In this document: piece by piece, positions 11,405-58,735 of the stretch
How the letters are laid out: each line of letters begins with the position of its first letter
How positions within the stretch are numbered: the first letter of the stretch is position 1
DNA from: Arcuatula senhousia
Taxonomy: Eukaryota; Mollusca; Bivalvia; Mytilida; Mytilidae
DNA: 64,000 nt
Direction of reading: 5' to 3'
Assembly: GCA_963971305.1 (NCBI GenBank)
Contig: OZ020316.1
Span: 15,332,745 to 15,396,744, forward strand
The notes under the pieces: model-generated
Seen by the model: only the letters and a program-made list of their open reading frames with translations
Databases searched by the model: none
Told to the model about the DNA's origin: nothing
Made by a program: the position numbers and the translations under genes

Positions 11405-11464
11405 TTTGATAGTCTCTAGCAGCTGAAGTTAAAACGGTCAAGTATTTTGTTATATTTATAAATT

Positions 11465-13018
11465 ATGTCAGCACTATTTGTTATTATGGGTATCTTGATG
11501 GGTATGCTTTGCCTATCCATCAACTGCCTCATTGTAATGAATATGCTGTTGCTTTGTTGGATAAAGGCCACCCTGGTGTTTATTCAACAAAGCTGGCCCC
11601 TGGTGTATTCTTTGTCAAAGAACTTCGGTTCTCATGGCAAACAATACACTATTTCACTGCTTTGTTTGATCAACATCACATTGATCTTGGTTAAACAGAC
11701 CAGTTCCCTGGTTCATTCTTCATTGGTCTTTGTGCAGCAGTCTTTTGGGTTTAGTATGTCTGGTCCTTTTGCTGAGGTGATGTCTGTGCTTGTTGATATG
11801 TTTGGTCCTTCTCCCCAGGTGATTTTGGTTGATGTGTCTTGTCCTCCCTCTCCCCAGGTGATTTTGGTTGATGTGCCTTTTCCTCCGTCTCCCCAGGTGA
11901 TTTTGGTTGATGTGCCTTGTCCTCCCTCTCCCCAGGTGATTTTGGTTGATGTGCCTTGTCCTCCCTCTCCCCAGGTGATTTTGGTTGATGTGCCTTGTCC
12001 TCCGTCTCCCCAGGTGATTTTGGTTGATGTGCCTTGTCCTCCCTCTCCCCAGGTGATTTCAGTTGATGTGCCTTGTCCTCCCTCTCCCCAGGTGATTTTG
12101 GTTGATGTGCCTTGTCCTCCCTCTCCCCAGGTGATTTTGGTTGATGTGCCTTGTCCTCAGTCTCCCCAGGTGATTTTGGTTGATGTGCCTTGTCCTCCGT
12201 CTCCCCAAGTGATTTTGGTTGATGTGCCTTGTCCTTCCTCTCCCCAGGTGATTTTGGTTGATGTGCCTTGTCCTCCTTCTCCCCAGGTGATTTTGGTTGA
12301 TGTGCCTTGTCCTCAGTCTCCCCAGGTGATTTTGGTTGATGTGCCTTGTCCTCCCTCTCCCCAGGTGATTTTGGTTGATGTGCCTTGTCCTTCCTCTCCC
12401 CAGGTGATTTTGGTTGATGTGCCTTGTCCTCCCTCTCCCCAGGTGATTTTGGTTGATGTGCCTTGTCCTCCCTCTCCCCAGGTGATTTTGGTTGATGTGC
12501 CTTGTCCTCCCTCTCCCCAGGTGATTTTGGCTGATGTGCCTTGTCCTCCGTCTCCCCAGGTGATTTTGGTTGATGTACTTTGTCCTCAGTCTCCCCAGGT
12601 GATTTTGTTTGATGTGCCTTGTCCTCCCTCTCCCCAGGTGATTTTGGTTGATGTGCCTTGTCCTCCCTCTCCCCAGGTGATTTTGGTTGATGTGCCTTGT
12701 CCTCAGTCTCCCAAGAAGATTTTGGTTGATGTGCCTTGTCCTCCCTCTCCCCAGGTGATTTTGGTTGATGTGCCTTGTCCTCAGTTTCCCCAGGTGATTT
12801 CGGTTGATGTGCCTTGTCCTCCTTCTCCCCAGGTGATTTTGGTTGTTTATTTGTTTGGTCTTCTTTTAAAGGTGCTCTCTCTAGGTTGTTTTAGCTCCAT
12901 CCCCGTTCAACAGGTGCTGTTTTTAGGTTTGTTTCCAATTTTTCAGCAGGTGATGTCATTTGGTGTAATGCGTTTAGGGCACCCGCCTCGACCCCATGAC
13001 CCAGGTGGTTTTTGGTAG
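11465..13018 (+). repeat. 39-bp minisatellite keeping a 517-codon ORF open
   Basis: About 28 units of 39 bp fill 11,800-12,850, each encoding 13 residues, consensus PSPQVILVDVPCP. Because 39 is a multiple of three, one frame stays open from an ATG at 11,465 to 13,018. Variation is concentrated at one Pro codon (P/Q/S). The 5' part before the array is hydrophobic but resembles no known protein. Each unit also contains 'tctccccag|gtgatttt', which looks like back-to-back splice sites. Degenerate units continue to about 12,960. I regard this as a minisatellite first and a gene only if transcript data show it. Confidence 0.8.
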
Positions 13019-30718: not shown

Positions 30719-31039
30719 AACCAGCTAGGTAAAGTGCACGAACCAATCGAGTAATGATGAATAATCCATAAAATAGTTCATTTTGCAAATTGCAAAGAAA
30801 AATAAACTTGTTGTCGGTCGTATTATAAAATAAAGATATATAAAACTTGTATCTAATTTTAACATATTTGACCATAAGTTATATAAAATATAGGGAATAT
30901 AGCAGACAGGTTACTCCTTTTAGATTTGACTAACGTTTAAACCACCTTAAGTTTACTTAAACTTTAAAGGCTGTTCTCAATCTCTTGTTGAAATAGAAGA
31001 ATATATTTTTCCTTATAAAAGAGATAATATATATCTTAC

Positions 31040-31076
31040 CTTTTGTGGGCATAAAGGTCATCATTAACACTAGAAA
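31040..31076 (-). pseudogene. Truncated paralogue of the Gly/Trp-peptide signal exon
   Basis: On the minus strand the 37 nt encode FLVLMMTFMPTK plus one base and end at a donor |GTAAG. The intact gene at 36,615-36,690 has FLVLMVTFMPTD with the same phase and donor. Intron similarity continues to about 30,985 ('ata..ttcttctatttcaa.aag'). Upstream of 31,076 similarity stops at unrelated sequence, so the start codon half is missing. No second exon was found below it. Confidence 0.65.
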
Positions 31077-35225: not shown

Positions 35226-35459
35226 AATAAGCATAGATCACACGCTCTTGGTCCCTGCATTATGAGCTGGACTACAAAACATTTGAAAAATAATTTTTAA
35301 GCTGGAAAAAAATTCTGGGCTCGTGATTTGATGTCTTTAAAAATACTACGTTAAAAAAATGGTTTAAATGAAGTTGAAATTTTGTTATCATCGATATACA
35401 TTCATCATTACAGTGATACAAATTTGAAGGTAAAACAGTGATTTATATACCTCATCAGG

Positions 35460-35596
35460 CTAGTACCACCTCCGACCCCATCTTCTTCCCCATCTTCCGT
35501 GACCGCCTCCCCACCATCGGCGGCCGTGTCCCCATCGGCCACCTCCCCACCTCCTTCCCGGCCATCCTCCTCCCCCTCCATACCATTGACCTTCAA
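35460..35596 (-). CDS. Gly/Trp-peptide gene, exon 2 (mature peptide)
   Basis: Starts after the acceptor 'tgtgttttcag|' and runs to TAG at 35,460-35,462. Codons for Gly (GGA/GGG/GGC/GGT), Arg (AGG/AGA/CGA/CGC/CGG) and Trp alternate. The strand is therefore very G-rich, in contrast with the AT-rich flanks. Just after the stop, TGAG|GTATAT resembles a donor, so a 3'-UTR intron is possible. No AATAAA was seen close by. Confidence 0.8.
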
Positions 35597-36690
35597 CTGA
35601 AAACACAACGTGTAAATCAAATTTAGAATTGTCTCAAAGAATAATTTATATGATGTTTTCAATATTATAACAACAAATGTTTTGGGCAATAAACTAAGTA
35701 GCCTTTTAAAAAAAAAGATTATTATTGGGTAAACCTCTCGAAATACCGGTACAAACTTTTGAACACACACACTCAAAAATCTTTTTTCCCTCACGATAGA
35801 AGAGAAAAAGTCACTTTCTAACAACAATATTAAACCAATAAGCTGTTATTGTATTACCCCTTCGATATCATTGTTCGTCTCCTTTTTAAAATTTTGGCAT
35901 ATCAAACATGTTACTGTGGCCTTGTTTAATTTCATGTGTTTCGATGATGCACCCTGCAATGTGCTGGAAAACCCCTCTATGGGTGGTTCTACCGGTGCTA
36001 AAACCTTTTGTTATTTTCAAACTTAATTTATTTTACGATTTTTTTAAATAGCGTTGCATAAACTTTTACATCAAGTCTGCTTCTCGATGCTTTCGTAAAA
36101 GTTTTCTGGCATATTTTTTACCCTGTTTTATTGGGTGAAGATATGTTTCTTGTAGCTGCGAAGTTTTACGATGAACATTCACCCACTAGTCATTGAATGT
36201 CCATTTACATGTAAATAACCCTTGAAAATGAGATAACTGGTATATTTGAAATTTCCTTTAAAATTTATGATAAGGTATATTTCGTACGATCTAAGACGAT
36301 ATTTATCTAAATCAAGGCGAACATCGTTGTATGCTTGCCAATTTCAGCTATATTCTCGGTATAGAAGTATCAGTATTGGCCAAAAATAAAATTATTGTAT
36401 TTCGGATGGTGGATATGTAGAAAAATTCACAACGACAGATAAAACATCTAAAATGGGTTTAATGTCGCAAAACTGTTAGATATTAGAAAGCAATAAAATG
36501 CTAATTTAAAATGTAACAAATGTTTTACAAAATTTAAGAAATAGAATATGCTATATGTTTTCTTGAAATAGAGGGATATATCTAATATTAGAATGACATT
36601 ATTATTTCACTTACCATCTGTGGGCATGAAAGTCACCATTAACACAAGAAATAAAGCCAAAAAGGCAATAGACTTAAATAGTTTAGCCAT
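35460..36690 (-). CDS. Secreted Gly/Trp/Arg-rich cationic peptide precursor
   Basis: Two exons (36,615-36,690; 35,460-35,596) separated by a 1,018-bp GT-AG intron encode 70 residues. The start is fixed by cgccATGG just below a TATA box. Residues 1-28 form a signal peptide: a basic head (MAKLFK), a long Ala/Leu/Phe/Val core, and a likely cut after ..TDVEG. The predicted mature 42-mer starts QWYGGGGGWPGRRWGGGRWG and ends in GRRWGRRWY. It has 17 Gly, 10 Arg, 9 Trp, 2 His, 2 Tyr, 1 Pro, 1 Gln, no Cys and no acidic residue, so net charge is about +10. That composition fits a linear antimicrobial peptide. It also recalls, with Trp in place of Tyr, small Gly/Arg-rich mussel foot adhesive proteins of the fp-3 type. 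I recognise no named family; function is inferred. The acidic ORF read across exon 2 in another frame is a shadow. Confidence 0.8.
36615..36690 (-). CDS. Gly/Trp-peptide gene, exon 1 (signal peptide)
   Basis: 76 nt encode M1-D25 plus the first base of codon 26, ending at GATG|GTAAGTG (phase 1). A second, truncated version of this exon at 31,040-31,076 keeps the same phase and near-identical residues, which supports it as a real coding exon. Confidence 0.8.
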
Positions 36691-36725
36691 GGCGAAAGAT
36701 GCTTCAATGACTGGTAAAATCTTAT

Positions 36726-36738
36726 CCTTTTATATATA
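36726..36738 (-). promoter_or_regulatory. TATA box of the Gly/Trp-peptide gene
   Basis: The minus strand reads TATATATAAAAGG, a strong TATA match. Its upstream edge is 48 nt from the ATG at 36,690. Transcription would start near 36,705-36,710 (around 'ccagtcatt'), giving a 5' UTR of only about 15-20 nt. Confidence 0.65.
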
Positions 36739-37496
36739 ACCCAGAGATATCGGTTCGTCGCCGAATCTGAGGCACGTCATACATCGCTACATCTTGTTTG
36801 AGTGGCCGTCACCCTTGTGATGATTTGGCTTGAGGTTTTTTGGTGATTTGGTCATTTTTTCTGCCGAGTGACAGGCGCACGTACATGACTAAGCATGCAA
36901 AGATTGTTTATATTTACCAATCTCGTAAATCTAACTACATGACATGATGTATGAACATTGTTTGGTTTTGTTTTTCTACAAGAAGTAAACCCATTTGTCT
37001 ATTATTGAACATGCTCATAAAAGGTTCTTTATGTATAATTTTATGTCATCCAATGTTACTTAACTGAGGAATCCCCCTTTTGTTTTCAGGACAACAACAA
37101 TAAAATAAAAAATATTTTTAAAAAGGTAAACAGCACTTATGCTTGGTGTTGGTGCGTTAAACCTGAAGATGGTAAAATTTGATCTTGTAGAGGACCCATA
37201 AGTTAAATGCGACACCGTCGGAAATGATTTCAGAATAATTTAATACTGACCACCGGAAAAAAATAGAAATCAGGACAAAAATTGCAACGCTTGTTTTCAA
37301 TATAGACTCTTGCCATGTCATTTTTATTTTTAGAAGAAATCCTGGATCGAAAATGTTAAATATTTACAGAACGGATGAATACAGTATATTCAGATTTTCA
37401 CCAAACGAAAAACTAGGAGTATCAAAAACACTTTGCTTTATTTGGTCAACATTCAAAGCAACAGTTTTTGTCATTGCAAGATAAAAAATCTGTCAA
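36739..37496. other. Upstream region of the peptide gene; no other gene seen
   Basis: AT-rich; the first ~170 bp (to about 36,900) are less so ('cggttcgtcgccgaatctgagg', 'gagtggccgtcacc') and could hold upstream control sites. No further ORF or repeat was recognised. Confidence 0.4.
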
Positions 37497-41900: not shown

Positions 41901-44872
41901 TCTAGACCATGGGTCAACTGCAGAACACACAATGCATATGAAATAAAATCCGAATATTAGACCCAACGTCTATGATAAAGTATCTGAGACGTTGTATATC
42001 ATTGAACTTTTTAAACCGGTCAAACCTGTTGCTTTGTATGTGGGTGGAATATGTCTGACCAGTTTATGAACTTTTACACTTAAACCTGATAGAATTGTAC
42101 CTGTTGCAGGGAGTTCTGTTGTTAACCTTCTCATTTCACCTGAAAAAGTTTAGAACATCCAGTTCATAAAACTAAATATCAAATCAAATATGAGAAAACA
42201 GATTTTAGTACGCAAGATGTTTAACAGTAAGACGATGTATCAAAATATAGGAAAAGGTTTTCAACGGCAAGTTAATTTTTGAATTTAAAAATAAATCATT
42301 ATTGTTAATCTTTAAATTCTCTTATTATATTTCTCAAAACATCAAATAAATGTATGTACAGAATATCACTTTTGTTTAATAAAACCAAGAATCCCCAACT
42401 ACACAAACAAGAGGTTTACTCTGTAAGTAATTAAATTGCAAGCCTAACAAGGGGTTGCACTAAGTCGTGCTAAGCATACCCCCGCTCGACCATTCAGAAA
42501 ACAGGAAGTAGATGACCGACTGACCTGGAAAGGAGGGGCACGATACAAGTCATCATGCTTAAGCTGTATACCAAATTTGAAACCAATCCCTTCTATAGAA
42601 GCCGAGAAATCTGTTACGAAAAATTGTCTATTTTTGACCCATTAAAAGTCTAAGTTGGCTCGGAAAACAGGAAGTAGATGATGGACAGATCTGGAAAAGA
42701 GAAACACGGTATAACTAATCATGCTGAAGCTGTGTACCGAATTTGAAACCAATCCATCCAGTAGAAGCCGAGAAATCTGTTACAAAAATAATTCACATTT
42801 CATTTTTTTACCATAAAAAGTCTAAGTCGGCTCGGAAAACAGGAAGTAGATGATGGACAGACCTGGAAAGGAGAGGCATGGTGTAACTCATCATGCTGAA
42901 GCTGTGTACCAAATTTGAAACTAATCTATCCAGTAGAAGCCGAGAAATCTGTTACGAAAAATTTCACATTTCAAATTGTTTACCCTAAAAAGTCTAAGTC
43001 GGCTCGGAAAACAGGAAGTAGATGATGGACTGACCTGGAAAGGAGAGGCATGGTGTAACTCATCATGCTGAAGCTGTGTACCAAATTTGAAACTTATCCA
43101 TACAGTAGAAGCAGAGAAATTGAACCGGACGGACAGACGGACGGACAAAGGTATTGCAATATAGCCCCCTCTCTTACGAGTGGGGGTATAAAAACCAATT
43201 CATTTAACAAGGTCAGAGGATAATTCTCTTGATGTACTGTAAATGAAGAATTTATAACCTTCAAAACAGTTTTTGATATGTAGAGTGACACCAGCATATG
43301 CTCCTTGGTTGTCATAGCAATAGTCTGTCAATTTACTATGAAACATCCAACAGTCGTCTCCATTATATCCAGGCAGAAAGGCGTAGGCCCAACATTCTAC
43401 ATCCTGGTCATTGAGAGAAGCAAGACACGTGTCCTGACATTGTGTCTTTGTTATTTCCAGTGTGCTGAGAGATTCCGGTGGAATCAAATTGGCACTACTA
43501 CAGCCTGAGTTCTGTCCCCTGTCATCAAAAATACAGGTTCCTACAAAATTGGTAAAAATGGATACAAATGTAAATCTTATCTCAGAAAAATTATAAATAA
43601 ACCAATGAAATTTTCTTTTCTTCGTCGAATTAAATCGGTCACCAGCTAATTTTTGATAGCTGTTTTCAAATGAATAATCTCTCTTGTTCAATTTGAAAAA
43701 TTGTAATTGTTTATTTTTAAACACAATTGCATAGATTAAACCTTATTGAGGTATAATCTATGCAATTGTGTATAAAAGTATTTAATATAGCTTTAATATA
43801 TATACCCATTTTAAGATAACGGAAACTTACTTTAAAAAAAGTACCCATGAGGCGTAACATGAATCTTTCGTAACCATATAAAACATGTACTAGCATTTTA
43901 ATATCTCATATAAACATGAATCATTAATAACCATTTATAACTTGCCTTAAAATCTCTCACATACCAACATGAATCTTTCATAACCATTGAGTACTTGCCT
44001 ACAATTCTTTCACAAACAAACATGAATCTTCCATTACCATTTAGTACTTGCCTATAAATCTTTCACATACAGACATGTATCTTCCGTTACCATTTAGTAC
44101 TTGCCTACAATTCTTTCACATACAAACATGAATCGTTCGTTACAATTATCCTCTATCCATTCGCCGTTGGGTGGTTTAAGAGAGAAACAGATGTCCCCTT
44201 CAGTGGCAGTCGGCATTGATGGGGCGTACTGTGTCCACGCCGGATCTGTTCCGTCATACCATTCTTCGCCACCGGGTACGGATCTTTTTAATCCAATCCA
44301 TACATTGGTTATCCTGTATGGATACAGAAATGACGATATAATTTTGAGAATTCATACAGATGATTTGAAACACTTTTGAAATGAAAGTATTTTAAAATTT
44401 CTGCAATTTTAAAAGGATCCTTTTGCGTTCATAAGCTTTCCTCACTCTGAGACGATGTCATTGCTTTTAGAAAAAAAGTTTATTTAACTTTCGTCATCTT
44501 ATGGAAAACTGAACGTACTTAAATCTTTTTTTTTAAATGGGATTCTTTCAGTTGACCATTTAATTGGAAAAATTGAATTCATAAAAATTAATTTCAGTTG
44601 GCCGAGCTAGGAATGTTTTAATCAATTTTTAAAAAAAGTTAGCCGGTAGACTTTGAGGTAAAGAAACAAAACTTTAACTTAAAATGTGCTATAATAAAAC
44701 TACCAATTGGAAGATAAACTGGTGTCAAGCAGACTTCTTATGAAGTTGTTCTCTTGTAAGGTTTCAATCTTGACCAATGTTGATCCTATTCCGTTGCAGA
44801 CGACACTAGCTTCCTCCCATGATCTCGCCACATCAAAGAATGTAAATATCTCTTTGTCCTTTGTGGCTGTCG
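38644..44872 (-). CDS. C-type lectin / PAN-like membrane receptor, 5' end not found
   Basis: Seven exons with matching phases give 361 residues after a missing signal exon. In order: CTLD (about 1-127) with the four conserved Cys, WEEASVVC, WIGL, W.DG and FVCE landmarks; an eight-Cys PAN/apple-like module (128-221); a Thr/Ser/Glu stalk (222-277); a CxCxC motif (278-282); a charged juxtamembrane segment; one transmembrane helix (about 329-346, VIGVSGATILILSILFIF..) and a short basic tail. The EPN/QPD and WND sugar-binding motifs are absent (YAPSMPT and WIED instead), so classical Ca-dependent mannose or galactose binding is doubtful. Such CTLD-plus-membrane proteins are a large group in bivalves and may act in recognition or adhesion; ligand unknown. 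Introns contain repeats. Confidence 0.75.
39060..39290 (-). repeat. Dispersed repeat (inverted copy at 33,150; related to 49,735)
   Basis: 'gtaccaatgtggcaatcgaatgtcaaaag', 'caaaaaccaatgaacacgaac', 'tcagatgctccagaagagtaagc' and 'cacacccgttgtgttgc' are shared with 49,735-50,000. Lies in the intron of the lectin receptor gene. Confidence 0.65.
39291..40036. other. Intronic; no exon seen
   Basis: AT-rich, with a ~20-bp A-run near 39,660. Between the last two exons of the lectin receptor gene. Confidence 0.5.
40037..40126 (-). CDS. Lectin receptor exon F (Thr/Ser stalk)
   Basis: 90 nt, phase 1-1, between 'accaataag|' and ACCG|GTGATT. Encodes VPTTESSTTLWTKEEEMTTM.. to ..DIPTTSNT, a Thr-rich, probably O-glycosylated spacer between the extracellular domains and the membrane. 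Confidence 0.6.
40487..40510 (-). CDS. Lectin receptor mini-exon E (stalk)
   Basis: 24 nt, phase 1-1, between 'cttttttag|' and CTACAG|GTATGTG. Encodes GETDEETT. It starts with the same GTGA and ends with the same ACAG|GTA as mini-exon D, consistent with duplication of a stalk cassette. Confidence 0.5.
41090..41650. repeat. ~150-bp dispersed tandem family
   Basis: Units with 'agcaacaatctttctctatct', 'ggcaaatacaaaaaaaa' and 'catctgg.a.cttttgtagagctt' resemble 32,060-32,230 and 46,550-46,910. Intronic to the lectin receptor gene. Confidence 0.6.
41700..41945 (+). repeat. R2 fragment, intronic
   Basis: Inverted relative to 786-1,185: 'attattaatagggggaaggttgggccc', 'tcctaagccaggaatctttg', 'gtctatctacgactatttcaagactgg' and 'tctagaccatggg'. 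Confidence 0.7.
42101..42139 (-). CDS. Lectin receptor mini-exon D (stalk)
   Basis: 39 nt, phase 1-1, between 'actttttcag|' and CAACAG|GTACAA. Encodes GEMRRLTTELPAT. It is symmetrical, so it could be skipped without a frame change. Short; supported mainly by phase and by position. Confidence 0.55.
42495..43160. repeat. 171-bp tandem repeat, four units
   Basis: 'aacaggaagtagatga' recurs at about 42,500, 42,667, 42,839 and 43,010, each followed by 'acctggaaaggagaggca', 'catcatgctgaagctgtgta' and 'agaagccgagaaatctgtta'. It ends 'ccggacggacagacggacgg' and lies in the intron between exons C and D. Same superfamily as 4,800-5,560. Confidence 0.9.
43259..43540 (-). CDS. Lectin receptor exon C (PAN/apple-like module)
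   Basis: 282 nt, phase 1 to phase 1, acceptor 'aattttgtag|', donor GAAG|GTTATA. Eight cysteines: TCIF, GCSS, QCQ, TCL, ECWAYAF, DCWMF, YCYD and NCFE. The spacing C-x3-C, then CWAYxF, ending in TLHIKNC, looks like a PAN/apple-type fold. The exact family assignment needs a profile search. Confidence 0.7.
43850..44140 (-). repeat. 53-bp tandem copies of the CTLD exon end plus donor
   Basis: Six units (period 53, once 57) begin at 'catgaatc' near 43,858, 43,915, 43,968, 44,021, 44,074 and 44,127. On the minus strand each reads the end of exon B (FMFVCER) and the GC donor (AG|GCAAGT) with decay increasing downstream. Only the first unit (44,105-44,140) joins the frame of the exon. Confidence 0.8.
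44105..44313 (-). CDS. Lectin receptor exon B (second half of CTLD)
   Basis: 209 nt from 'tccatacag|' (phase 2 start). Encodes W-ITNVWIGLKRSVPGGEEW.., ..EGDICFSLKPPNGEWIEDN.. and ERFMFVCERIVG. The only donor that keeps the frame into the next exon is a GC donor, GTAG|GCAAGT, which is the known consensus for GC-AG introns. The plus-strand ORF on top is antisense. Confidence 0.75.
44704..44872 (-). CDS. Lectin receptor exon A (first half of CTLD)
   Basis: 169 nt from 'actttcttag|' (phase 1 start) to AATTG|GTAGTT (phase 2 end). Encodes ..KDKEIFTFFDVARSWEEA.., VVCNGIGSTLVKIETLQENN. The WxxA..C..LVxI...EN order is the typical first half of a CTLD. A signal-peptide exon ending in phase 1 must lie upstream; none was found between 44,880 and about 49,000. 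Confidence 0.75.
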
Positions 44873-57150: not shown

Positions 57151-57162
57151 TTTCTGCTAATA

Positions 57163-58735
57163 CTTATACCGTCGTTTCTCAAAGCTGATACTTATACCGT
57201 CGTTTCTCACAGCTGATACTTATACCGTCGTTTCTCAAAGCTGTTTCTCAAAGCTGATACTTGTACCGTCGTTTCTCAAAGCTGTTTCTCAAAGCTGATA
57301 CTTATATCGTCGTTTCTCAAAGCTGATACTTATACCGTCGTTTCTCAAAGCTGATACTTATACCGTCGTTTCTCAAAGCTGTTTCTCAAAGCTGATACTT
57401 GTACCGTCGTTTCTCAAAGCTGTTTCTCAAAGCTGATACTTATATCGTCGTTTCTCAAAGCTGATACTTATACCGTCGTTTCTCAAAGCTGATACTTATA
57501 CCGTCGTTTCTCAAAGCTGTTTCTCAAAGCTGATACTTATACCGTCGTTTCTCAAAGCTGTTTCTCAAAGCTGATACCTATACCGTCGTTTCTCAAAGCT
57601 GATACTTATACCGTCGTTTCTCAAAGCTGATACTTATACCGTCGTTTCTCACAGCTGATACTTATACCGTCGTTTCTCAAAGCTGTTTCTCAAAGCTGAT
57701 ACTTGTACCGTCGTTTCTCAAAGCTGTTTCTCAAAGCTGATACTTATATCGTCGTTTCTCAAAGCTGATACTTATACCGTCGTTTCTCAAAGCTGATACT
57801 TATACCGTCGTTTCTCAAAGCTGTTTCTCAAAGCTGATACTTGTACCGTCGTTTCTCAAAGCTGTTTCTCAAAGCTGATACTTATATCGTCGTTTCTCAA
57901 AGCTGATACTTATACCGTCGTTTCTCAAAGCTGATACTTATACCGTCGTTTCTCAAAGCTGTTTCTCAAAGCTGATACTTATACCGTCGTTTCTCAAAGC
58001 TGTTTCTCAAAGCTGATACTTATACCGTCGTTTCTCAAAGCTGTTTCTCAAAGCTGATACTTATATCGTCGTTTCTCAAAGCTGATACTTATACCGTCGT
58101 TGTTCAAAGCTGATACTTATACCGTCGTTTCTCAAAGCTGTTTCTCAAAGCTGATACTTGTACCGTCGTTTCTCAAAGCTGTTTCTCAAAGCTGATACTT
58201 ATATCGTCGTTTCTCAAAGCTGATACTTATACCGTCGTTTCTCAAAGCTGATACTTATACCGTCGTTTCTCAAAGCTGTTTCTCAAAGCTGATACTTATA
58301 CCGTCGTTTCTCAAAGCTGTTTCTCAAAGCTGATACTTATACCGTCGTTTCTCAAAGCTGTTTCTCAAAGCTGATACTTATATCGTCGGTTCTCAAAGCT
58401 GATACTTATACCGTCGTTTCTCAAAAGCTGATACTTATACCGTCGTTTCTCAAAGCTGATACTTATACCGTCGTTTCTCAAAAGCTGATACTTATACCGT
58501 CGGTTCTCAAAGCTGATACTTATACCGTCGTTTCTCAAAAGCTGATACTTATATCGTCGGTTCTCAAAGCTGATACTTATACCGTCGTTTCTCAAAAGCT
58601 GATACTTATACCGTCGGTTCTCAAAGCTGATACTTATACCGTCGTTTCTCAAAAGCTGATACTTATATCGTCGGTTCTCAAAGCTGATACTTATACCGTC
58701 GTTTCTCAAAGCTGATGCTTATAATGTCGTTTATA
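57163..58735. repeat. 28-bp satellite with 13-bp inserts and higher-order pattern
   Basis: The basic unit is 'aaagctgatacttataccgtcgtttctc' type (28 bp). A 13-bp 'aaagctgtttctc' is added after some units (41-bp variants). Variants such as 'ctcacagc' recur about 443 bp apart (57,206 and 57,649), showing higher-order amplification. After 58,380 a 28/29-bp alternation with 'gtcggttctc' takes over. The 114-codon minus ORF only reads the array. Confidence 0.95.

Follow-up and report, generated by a model that had tools for sequence, protein, structure and literature searches.

The window, a stretch of 64,000 nucleotides from the mytilid bivalve Arcuatula senhousia, contains a two-exon gene on its minus strand whose predicted product is a short, secreted and cationic peptide, free of Cys and dominated by Gly, Trp and Arg. 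That this is a real gene appears well supported by tests of its coding pattern and by a duplicated piece of its first exon. We see an even chance that it is a compact, probably working gene whose linear cationic product acts as an antimicrobial effector; the function was deduced from chemistry, because no homologue or Pfam domain was found.

Gene structure and predicted product

The gene and its mature product were assigned as follows, in the order of transcription.

36726-36738, minus strand: TATA box TATATATAAAAGG, 48 nt 5' of the ATG
36615-36690, minus strand: coding exon 1, with the ATG (start context GCCATGG) and most of the signal peptide
35597-36614, minus strand: intron of 1018 nt, phase 1, GTAAGTG...TTTTCAG
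35460-35596, minus strand: coding exon 2, with the last signal-peptide residues, the mature peptide and the TAG stop
35463-35588, minus strand: mature peptide of 42 residues, beginning QW, with four GRRW units and no Cys, Asp or Glu
35442-35447, minus strand: TATAAA, a non-canonical poly(A)-signal-like hexamer, the sole such hexamer near the stop

Splicing of 36615 to 35596 gives a product of 70 residues (28 + 42). A preliminary description of this locus had given the same coordinates, junction, product length, division into signal and mature parts, and composition, all of which were reproduced exactly. The TATA box, favourable start context and splice sites that it listed are also present, and from the position of the TATA box transcription would be expected to start at approximately 36708. 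The TATA box and the start context are weak evidence alone, because both strands of the window together hold 122 matches to TATAWAR and 12 to RCCATGG. In a simple weight matrix the donor ranks 26th among the 6770 GT dinucleotides of the window (top 0.4%) and the acceptor 406th among 6466 AG dinucleotides. Eleven poly(A)-signal hexamers were sought in the 660 nt 3' of the stop; AATAAA is absent from this stretch, and the hexamers present are TATAAA at 12 nt and ATTAAA at 555 and 600 nt. Upstream, approximately 340 nt from the TATA box, a match to GGGRNNYYCC (NF-kB-like) lies at 37077 on the minus strand; it was set aside as evidence, since both strands of the window together contain nine such matches, some of them overlapping.

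The first 28 residues resemble a signal peptide, with two Lys, a hydrophobic core of about 15 residues and VEG before the predicted cut; these features were read by eye, and the VEG/QW cleavage site was placed by the -3,-1 rule. The mature peptide comprises 17 Gly (40%), 10 Arg (24%), 9 Trp (21%), 2 Tyr, 2 His, 1 Gln and 1 Pro, with no Cys, Asp, Glu or Lys. The phrase 'Gly/Trp/Arg-only' in the preliminary description thus holds for 36 of the 42 residues, the other six being Tyr, His, Gln and Pro. The peptide starts with QWYGG and ends in a basic-aromatic RRWY, and each of its four RR pairs lies between Gly and Trp, forming GRRW. The precursor matched no Pfam family at E values up to 1. AlphaFold2, run on the mature part alone as a single sequence, returned a mean pLDDT of 60, a pTM of 0.15 and no DSSP assignment, a model too uncertain for use.

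Coding pattern of the mature region

In principle, G-periodic DNA might produce a similar composition, since Gly, Arg and Trp are all encoded by NGN codons and these make up 36 of the 42 codons of the mature stretch. The open frame alone is no evidence of coding, because five of the six frames across the mature stretch lack stops. The coding and tract models are separated by the third base, which is free in GGN and CGN codons, whereas only G keeps Trp in TGN codons. Third-base G was found in 9 of 9 TGN codons versus 2 of 21 GGN and CGN codons (Fisher p = 3.8e-6); for the AGN codons alone, a purine at the third base in 6 of 6 versus 14 of 21 is not significant (p = 0.13). When the third bases were permuted among the 36 NGN codons, a mean of 6.7 Cys, Ser or stop codons arose, and zero was never reached in 200,000 trials.

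The amino-acid entropy of the coding frame, 2.17 bits, compares with 3.26 +/- 0.15 bits in 5000 dinucleotide shuffles, none of which was as low. It is the lowest of the six frames, with two antisense frames near it at 2.31 and 2.34 bits, the latter containing a stop. The GRRW units are written with four codon spellings (GGAAGGAGGTGG, GGCCGCCGATGG, GGAAGAAGATGG and GGTCGGAGGTGG), and four GRRW were reached in none of 100,000 shuffles of the peptide. Selection acting on the peptide would be expected to leave such a codon pattern, together with the varied spelling of GRRW.

At best, 42 stop-free codons of the window hold 37 Gly, Arg and Trp, whereas none of 2173 fourth-order Markov simulations went above 19. 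These simulations understate real low-complexity DNA, because the window still reaches 26 when 35401-36700 is left out, and the codon-position pattern is the stronger evidence. A chance G-rich tract was rejected on the third-position test, with the simulations as weaker support.

A decayed duplicate and an intron repeat

Two further features bear on the history of the locus.

30985-31076, minus strand: decayed copy of exon 1 (its 3' part), the donor and the beginning of the intron, 75% identical over 93 columns
35914-36133, minus strand: decayed fragment of a tandem repeat family (unit of about 638 bp) within the intron, with identity of about 80% across the aligned bases

The duplicate (blastn E 7e-10 within the window) lies 5.6 kb from the gene on the same strand, with identity at 31 of the 37 columns of the exon, as we counted them in the alignment. 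It is immediately preceded by an in-frame stop, and a second exon 2 was found neither in the window nor in the 100 kb to each side; the piece at 31076-30985 was therefore read as a decayed partial duplicate, and it would record one past partial duplication of the gene.

The intron fragment matches the repeat locus L003 at 168 of 209 aligned bases, with 25 gap positions set aside. The tandem repeat of about 638 bp (loci L002-L008) has 81 other listed matches, on contigs C1-C11 and C14 and on several small ones. In neutral simulations, which use substitution only and assume that the divergence of the repeat arose inside the intron, 172 of 5000 sequences keep the start and frame at 20% divergence, as in the intron fragment, and 1834 of 5000 do so at 5%.

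Other features of the window

A 39-bp repeat of approximately 27 copies (94% matches) occupies 11462-13015 and carries an open frame of 518 codons on the plus strand, encoding SPQVILVDVPCPP repeats. Long frames are found on the opposite strand too, and since 39 is a multiple of three, the open frames may stem from the repeat alone. A larger array, with a 28-bp unit in about 57 copies and higher-order periods, spans 57156-58732.

Outside the three repeat arrays of the window there are 105 ORFs of at least 70 codons, 58 of which were scanned for domains. One of these has a C-type lectin match (E 8.5e-5), and there are single weaker matches to BetaGal_gal-bd and OAF_C. An ORF at 43203-43742 on the minus strand matches PAN_2 weakly (E 0.00065), scoring 20.2 bits where the cutoff is 21.1, and is perhaps an exon of an apple-domain protein. 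No Rfam match at the gathering score was obtained in the window.

Searches for relatives

A protein database search with the precursor gave eight word-sharing candidates, none at E <= 10. The PAN-domain ORF of the window, used as a control, gave 20 candidates, none at E <= 0.001, so proteins of this lineage may be poorly represented in the database. A word-based protein search of the whole 1.036-Gb assembly (1803 contigs) revealed no other credible copy. It yielded six candidates and three matches at E <= 10. Two of these matches are the exons of the gene itself, and the other, L031 (E 0.4), was discarded, as it sits in an ORF that we take, by eye, to be arylsulfatase-like. The known exon-1 relict was missed by this search, which is accordingly not exhaustive, and distant copies may escape detection. 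The flanking 100 kb on each side gave weak matches, none of them credible (best protein E 0.6, best DNA E 0.11). Literature searches found nothing for the N-terminal string MAKLFKS and no Gly-rich antimicrobial peptide (AMP) of bivalves, with few subscription journals covered.

The preliminary description had proposed a new effector family. The lack of any match fits this proposal, but such absences are weak evidence, because the control ORF was unmatched and the exon-1 relict was missed. What does appear well supported by the sequence is that the locus encodes a Gly-rich peptide, predicted to be secreted, that lacks Cys and is high in Trp and Arg.

Comparison with known peptides

Of the linear AMPs already described, the myticalins are among those closest to this peptide. 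The myticalins and modiocalins described from Mytilus and Modiolus are likewise secreted, Cys-free, Arg-rich and linear, and of similar length (PMC5577615, PMC12294457); myticalin lengths are given as 23-42 residues (PMC5577615, 2017), with up to 47 in subfamily D (PMC12294457, 2025), and a Trp-enriched D subtype is described with 12% Trp (PMC5577615, PMC12294457). As described, the myticalins are mostly Pro/Arg-rich, whereas the peptide reported here has one Pro and 40% Gly. Membership was rejected on three features. The acidic C-terminal extension that follows a dibasic site in myticalins has no counterpart in the mature part here, which lacks Asp and Glu. Myticalin genes are reported to have three exons, with exon 2 holding the whole signal and mature region and a phase-1 intron after the dibasic site (PMC5577615); the intron here is also of phase 1 but splits the signal-coding part. 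The reported signal consensus, MKGXXLLLLTIXXALCMIXECEG, does not fit MAKLFKSIAFLALFLVLMVTFMPTDVEG on comparison by eye, although the final EG is common to both.

The molluscidins, gill AMPs described from oyster, pen shell and abalone, are linear and highly cationic with repeated dibasic residues (PMC11767717), and in these respects resemble the present peptide, a comparison made by description only. Their precursors are reported to have neither a signal peptide nor a pro-region (PMC5577615), whereas the N-terminus here is signal-like by eye.

The epidermal AMPs of Caenorhabditis elegans of the NLP-29 and caenacin (CNC) types, again compared by description, are small, secreted and basic, rich in Gly and aromatic residues, and carry QWGYG after the signal (PMC11993903). 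The peptide here shares QW after its predicted signal but continues as QWYGG; the likeness probably reflects convergence, and no homology is claimed. High Gly content and cationic character, compared by description only, are likewise shared with the arthropod Gly-rich AMPs, of which the crustacean examples described are, unlike the present peptide, Cys-bearing or multi-domain (PMC11767717, PMC12466427).

The adhesive protein fp-3 is small, secreted and aromatic and contains Gly and Arg, and the parallel that the preliminary description drew with it stands as a compositional one. It extends no further, since fp-3 is rich in Tyr/DOPA, whereas the mature part here has 2 Tyr among 42 residues, Trp instead, and no Lys.

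Proposed function and alternative readings

With 17 Gly among 42 residues, 10 Arg and no acidic residue, the peptide falls, by composition only, into the class of Gly-rich AMPs (more than 25% Gly and cationic). Under the 25% criterion that the Antimicrobial Peptide Database (APD) applies to residue-rich AMPs (PMC9658076), it is Gly-rich only, and neither Trp-rich (21%) nor Arg-rich (24%). Of the 11 Trp-rich AMPs in the APD survey, 5 are Arg-rich as well, and Trp-rich AMPs are described as falling to baseline by about 30 residues (PMC9658076).

As an antimicrobial effector, the precursor would be cut by signal peptidase after VEG to release the 42-residue peptide, whose N-terminal Gln may cyclise to pyroglutamate. 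Flexible Gly linkers would space the Trp/Arg clusters (GRRW, RRWW), the ten Arg, uncountered by acidic residues, would bind anionic bacterial surfaces, and Trp would partition into the membrane interface, leading to disruption or entry. Direct membrane action of this kind is our best guess, with the chances for and against it about balanced. By composition, an antimicrobial role is not distinguished from an adhesive or a matrix one.

Convertase cleavage with C-terminal amidation is usually signalled by a Gly followed by a dibasic site, and the context shared by all four RR pairs would suit a precursor of several short amidated signalling or antimicrobial peptides cut at GRR. Processing of this kind would release (p)QWYGGGGGWP-amide, WGGGRWGH-amide and WWGGGHGRW-amide. 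At least four GRR arose in 85 of 100,000 shuffles of the peptide, and a Gly before the dibasic site is taken as an amidation signal in the description of myticalins (PMC12294457). The three longer products nevertheless differ in sequence, the last two sites would yield no more than one free Trp and a WY dipeptide, GRRW may be a mere repeat unit, and the molluscidins are described as gill AMPs in which dibasic residues are themselves repeated (PMC11767717). We consider this reading unlikely. We are similarly doubtful of a small byssal adhesive or cuticle protein, an analogue of fp-3 in which Trp, possibly hydroxylated, would replace DOPA. Precedent for it comes from fp-3, small, flexible through Gly and containing hydroxyarginine, and from fp-1 of Perna viridis, which may use 7-hydroxytryptophan instead of DOPA (PMC4275877). 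It is countered by the paucity of Tyr and the absence of Lys in the mature part, and a literature search for a tryptophan-rich, glycine-rich mussel byssus protein found none.

A shell or periostracum matrix peptide, with a Gly-rich framework behind a signal-like N-terminus and a basic-aromatic C-terminus, would account for the RRWY end, which recalls the RKKKY-type ends of shematrins. The shematrins are much longer, however, and high Trp is unusual for a shell-matrix peptide, so that we regard this role as very improbable. The locus could also be no working gene at all but a G-rich tract or a decaying pseudogene behind a signal-like ORF; in keeping with this, no canonical poly(A) signal lies near the stop, the nearby exon-1 duplicate has decayed and most frames of the tract are open. 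The dependence of the third position on the encoded amino acid and the variation of synonymous codons across the repeats argue against it, as do the intact frame and the good donor and start. A dead gene is thus disfavoured by the codon pattern, and we consider it decidedly unlikely.

Gly-rich peptides are described as a major AMP type in arthropods and are stated to be absent from the known bivalve repertoire (PMC12294457, 2025). A bolder version of the antimicrobial reading, which we hold tentatively and think somewhat improbable, is that the peptide is the first Gly-rich defence peptide of a bivalve, born within the lineage and convergent with the QWGYG-bearing peptides of nematodes, and that its four GRR sites could yield both a long membrane-active peptide and short amidated ones. 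The peptide would be simple to synthesise and to test as a natural Gly-spaced Trp/Arg scaffold. If it proves active, a 42-residue peptide built of essentially three kinds of residue would add a Gly-rich class to the AMPs of bivalves.
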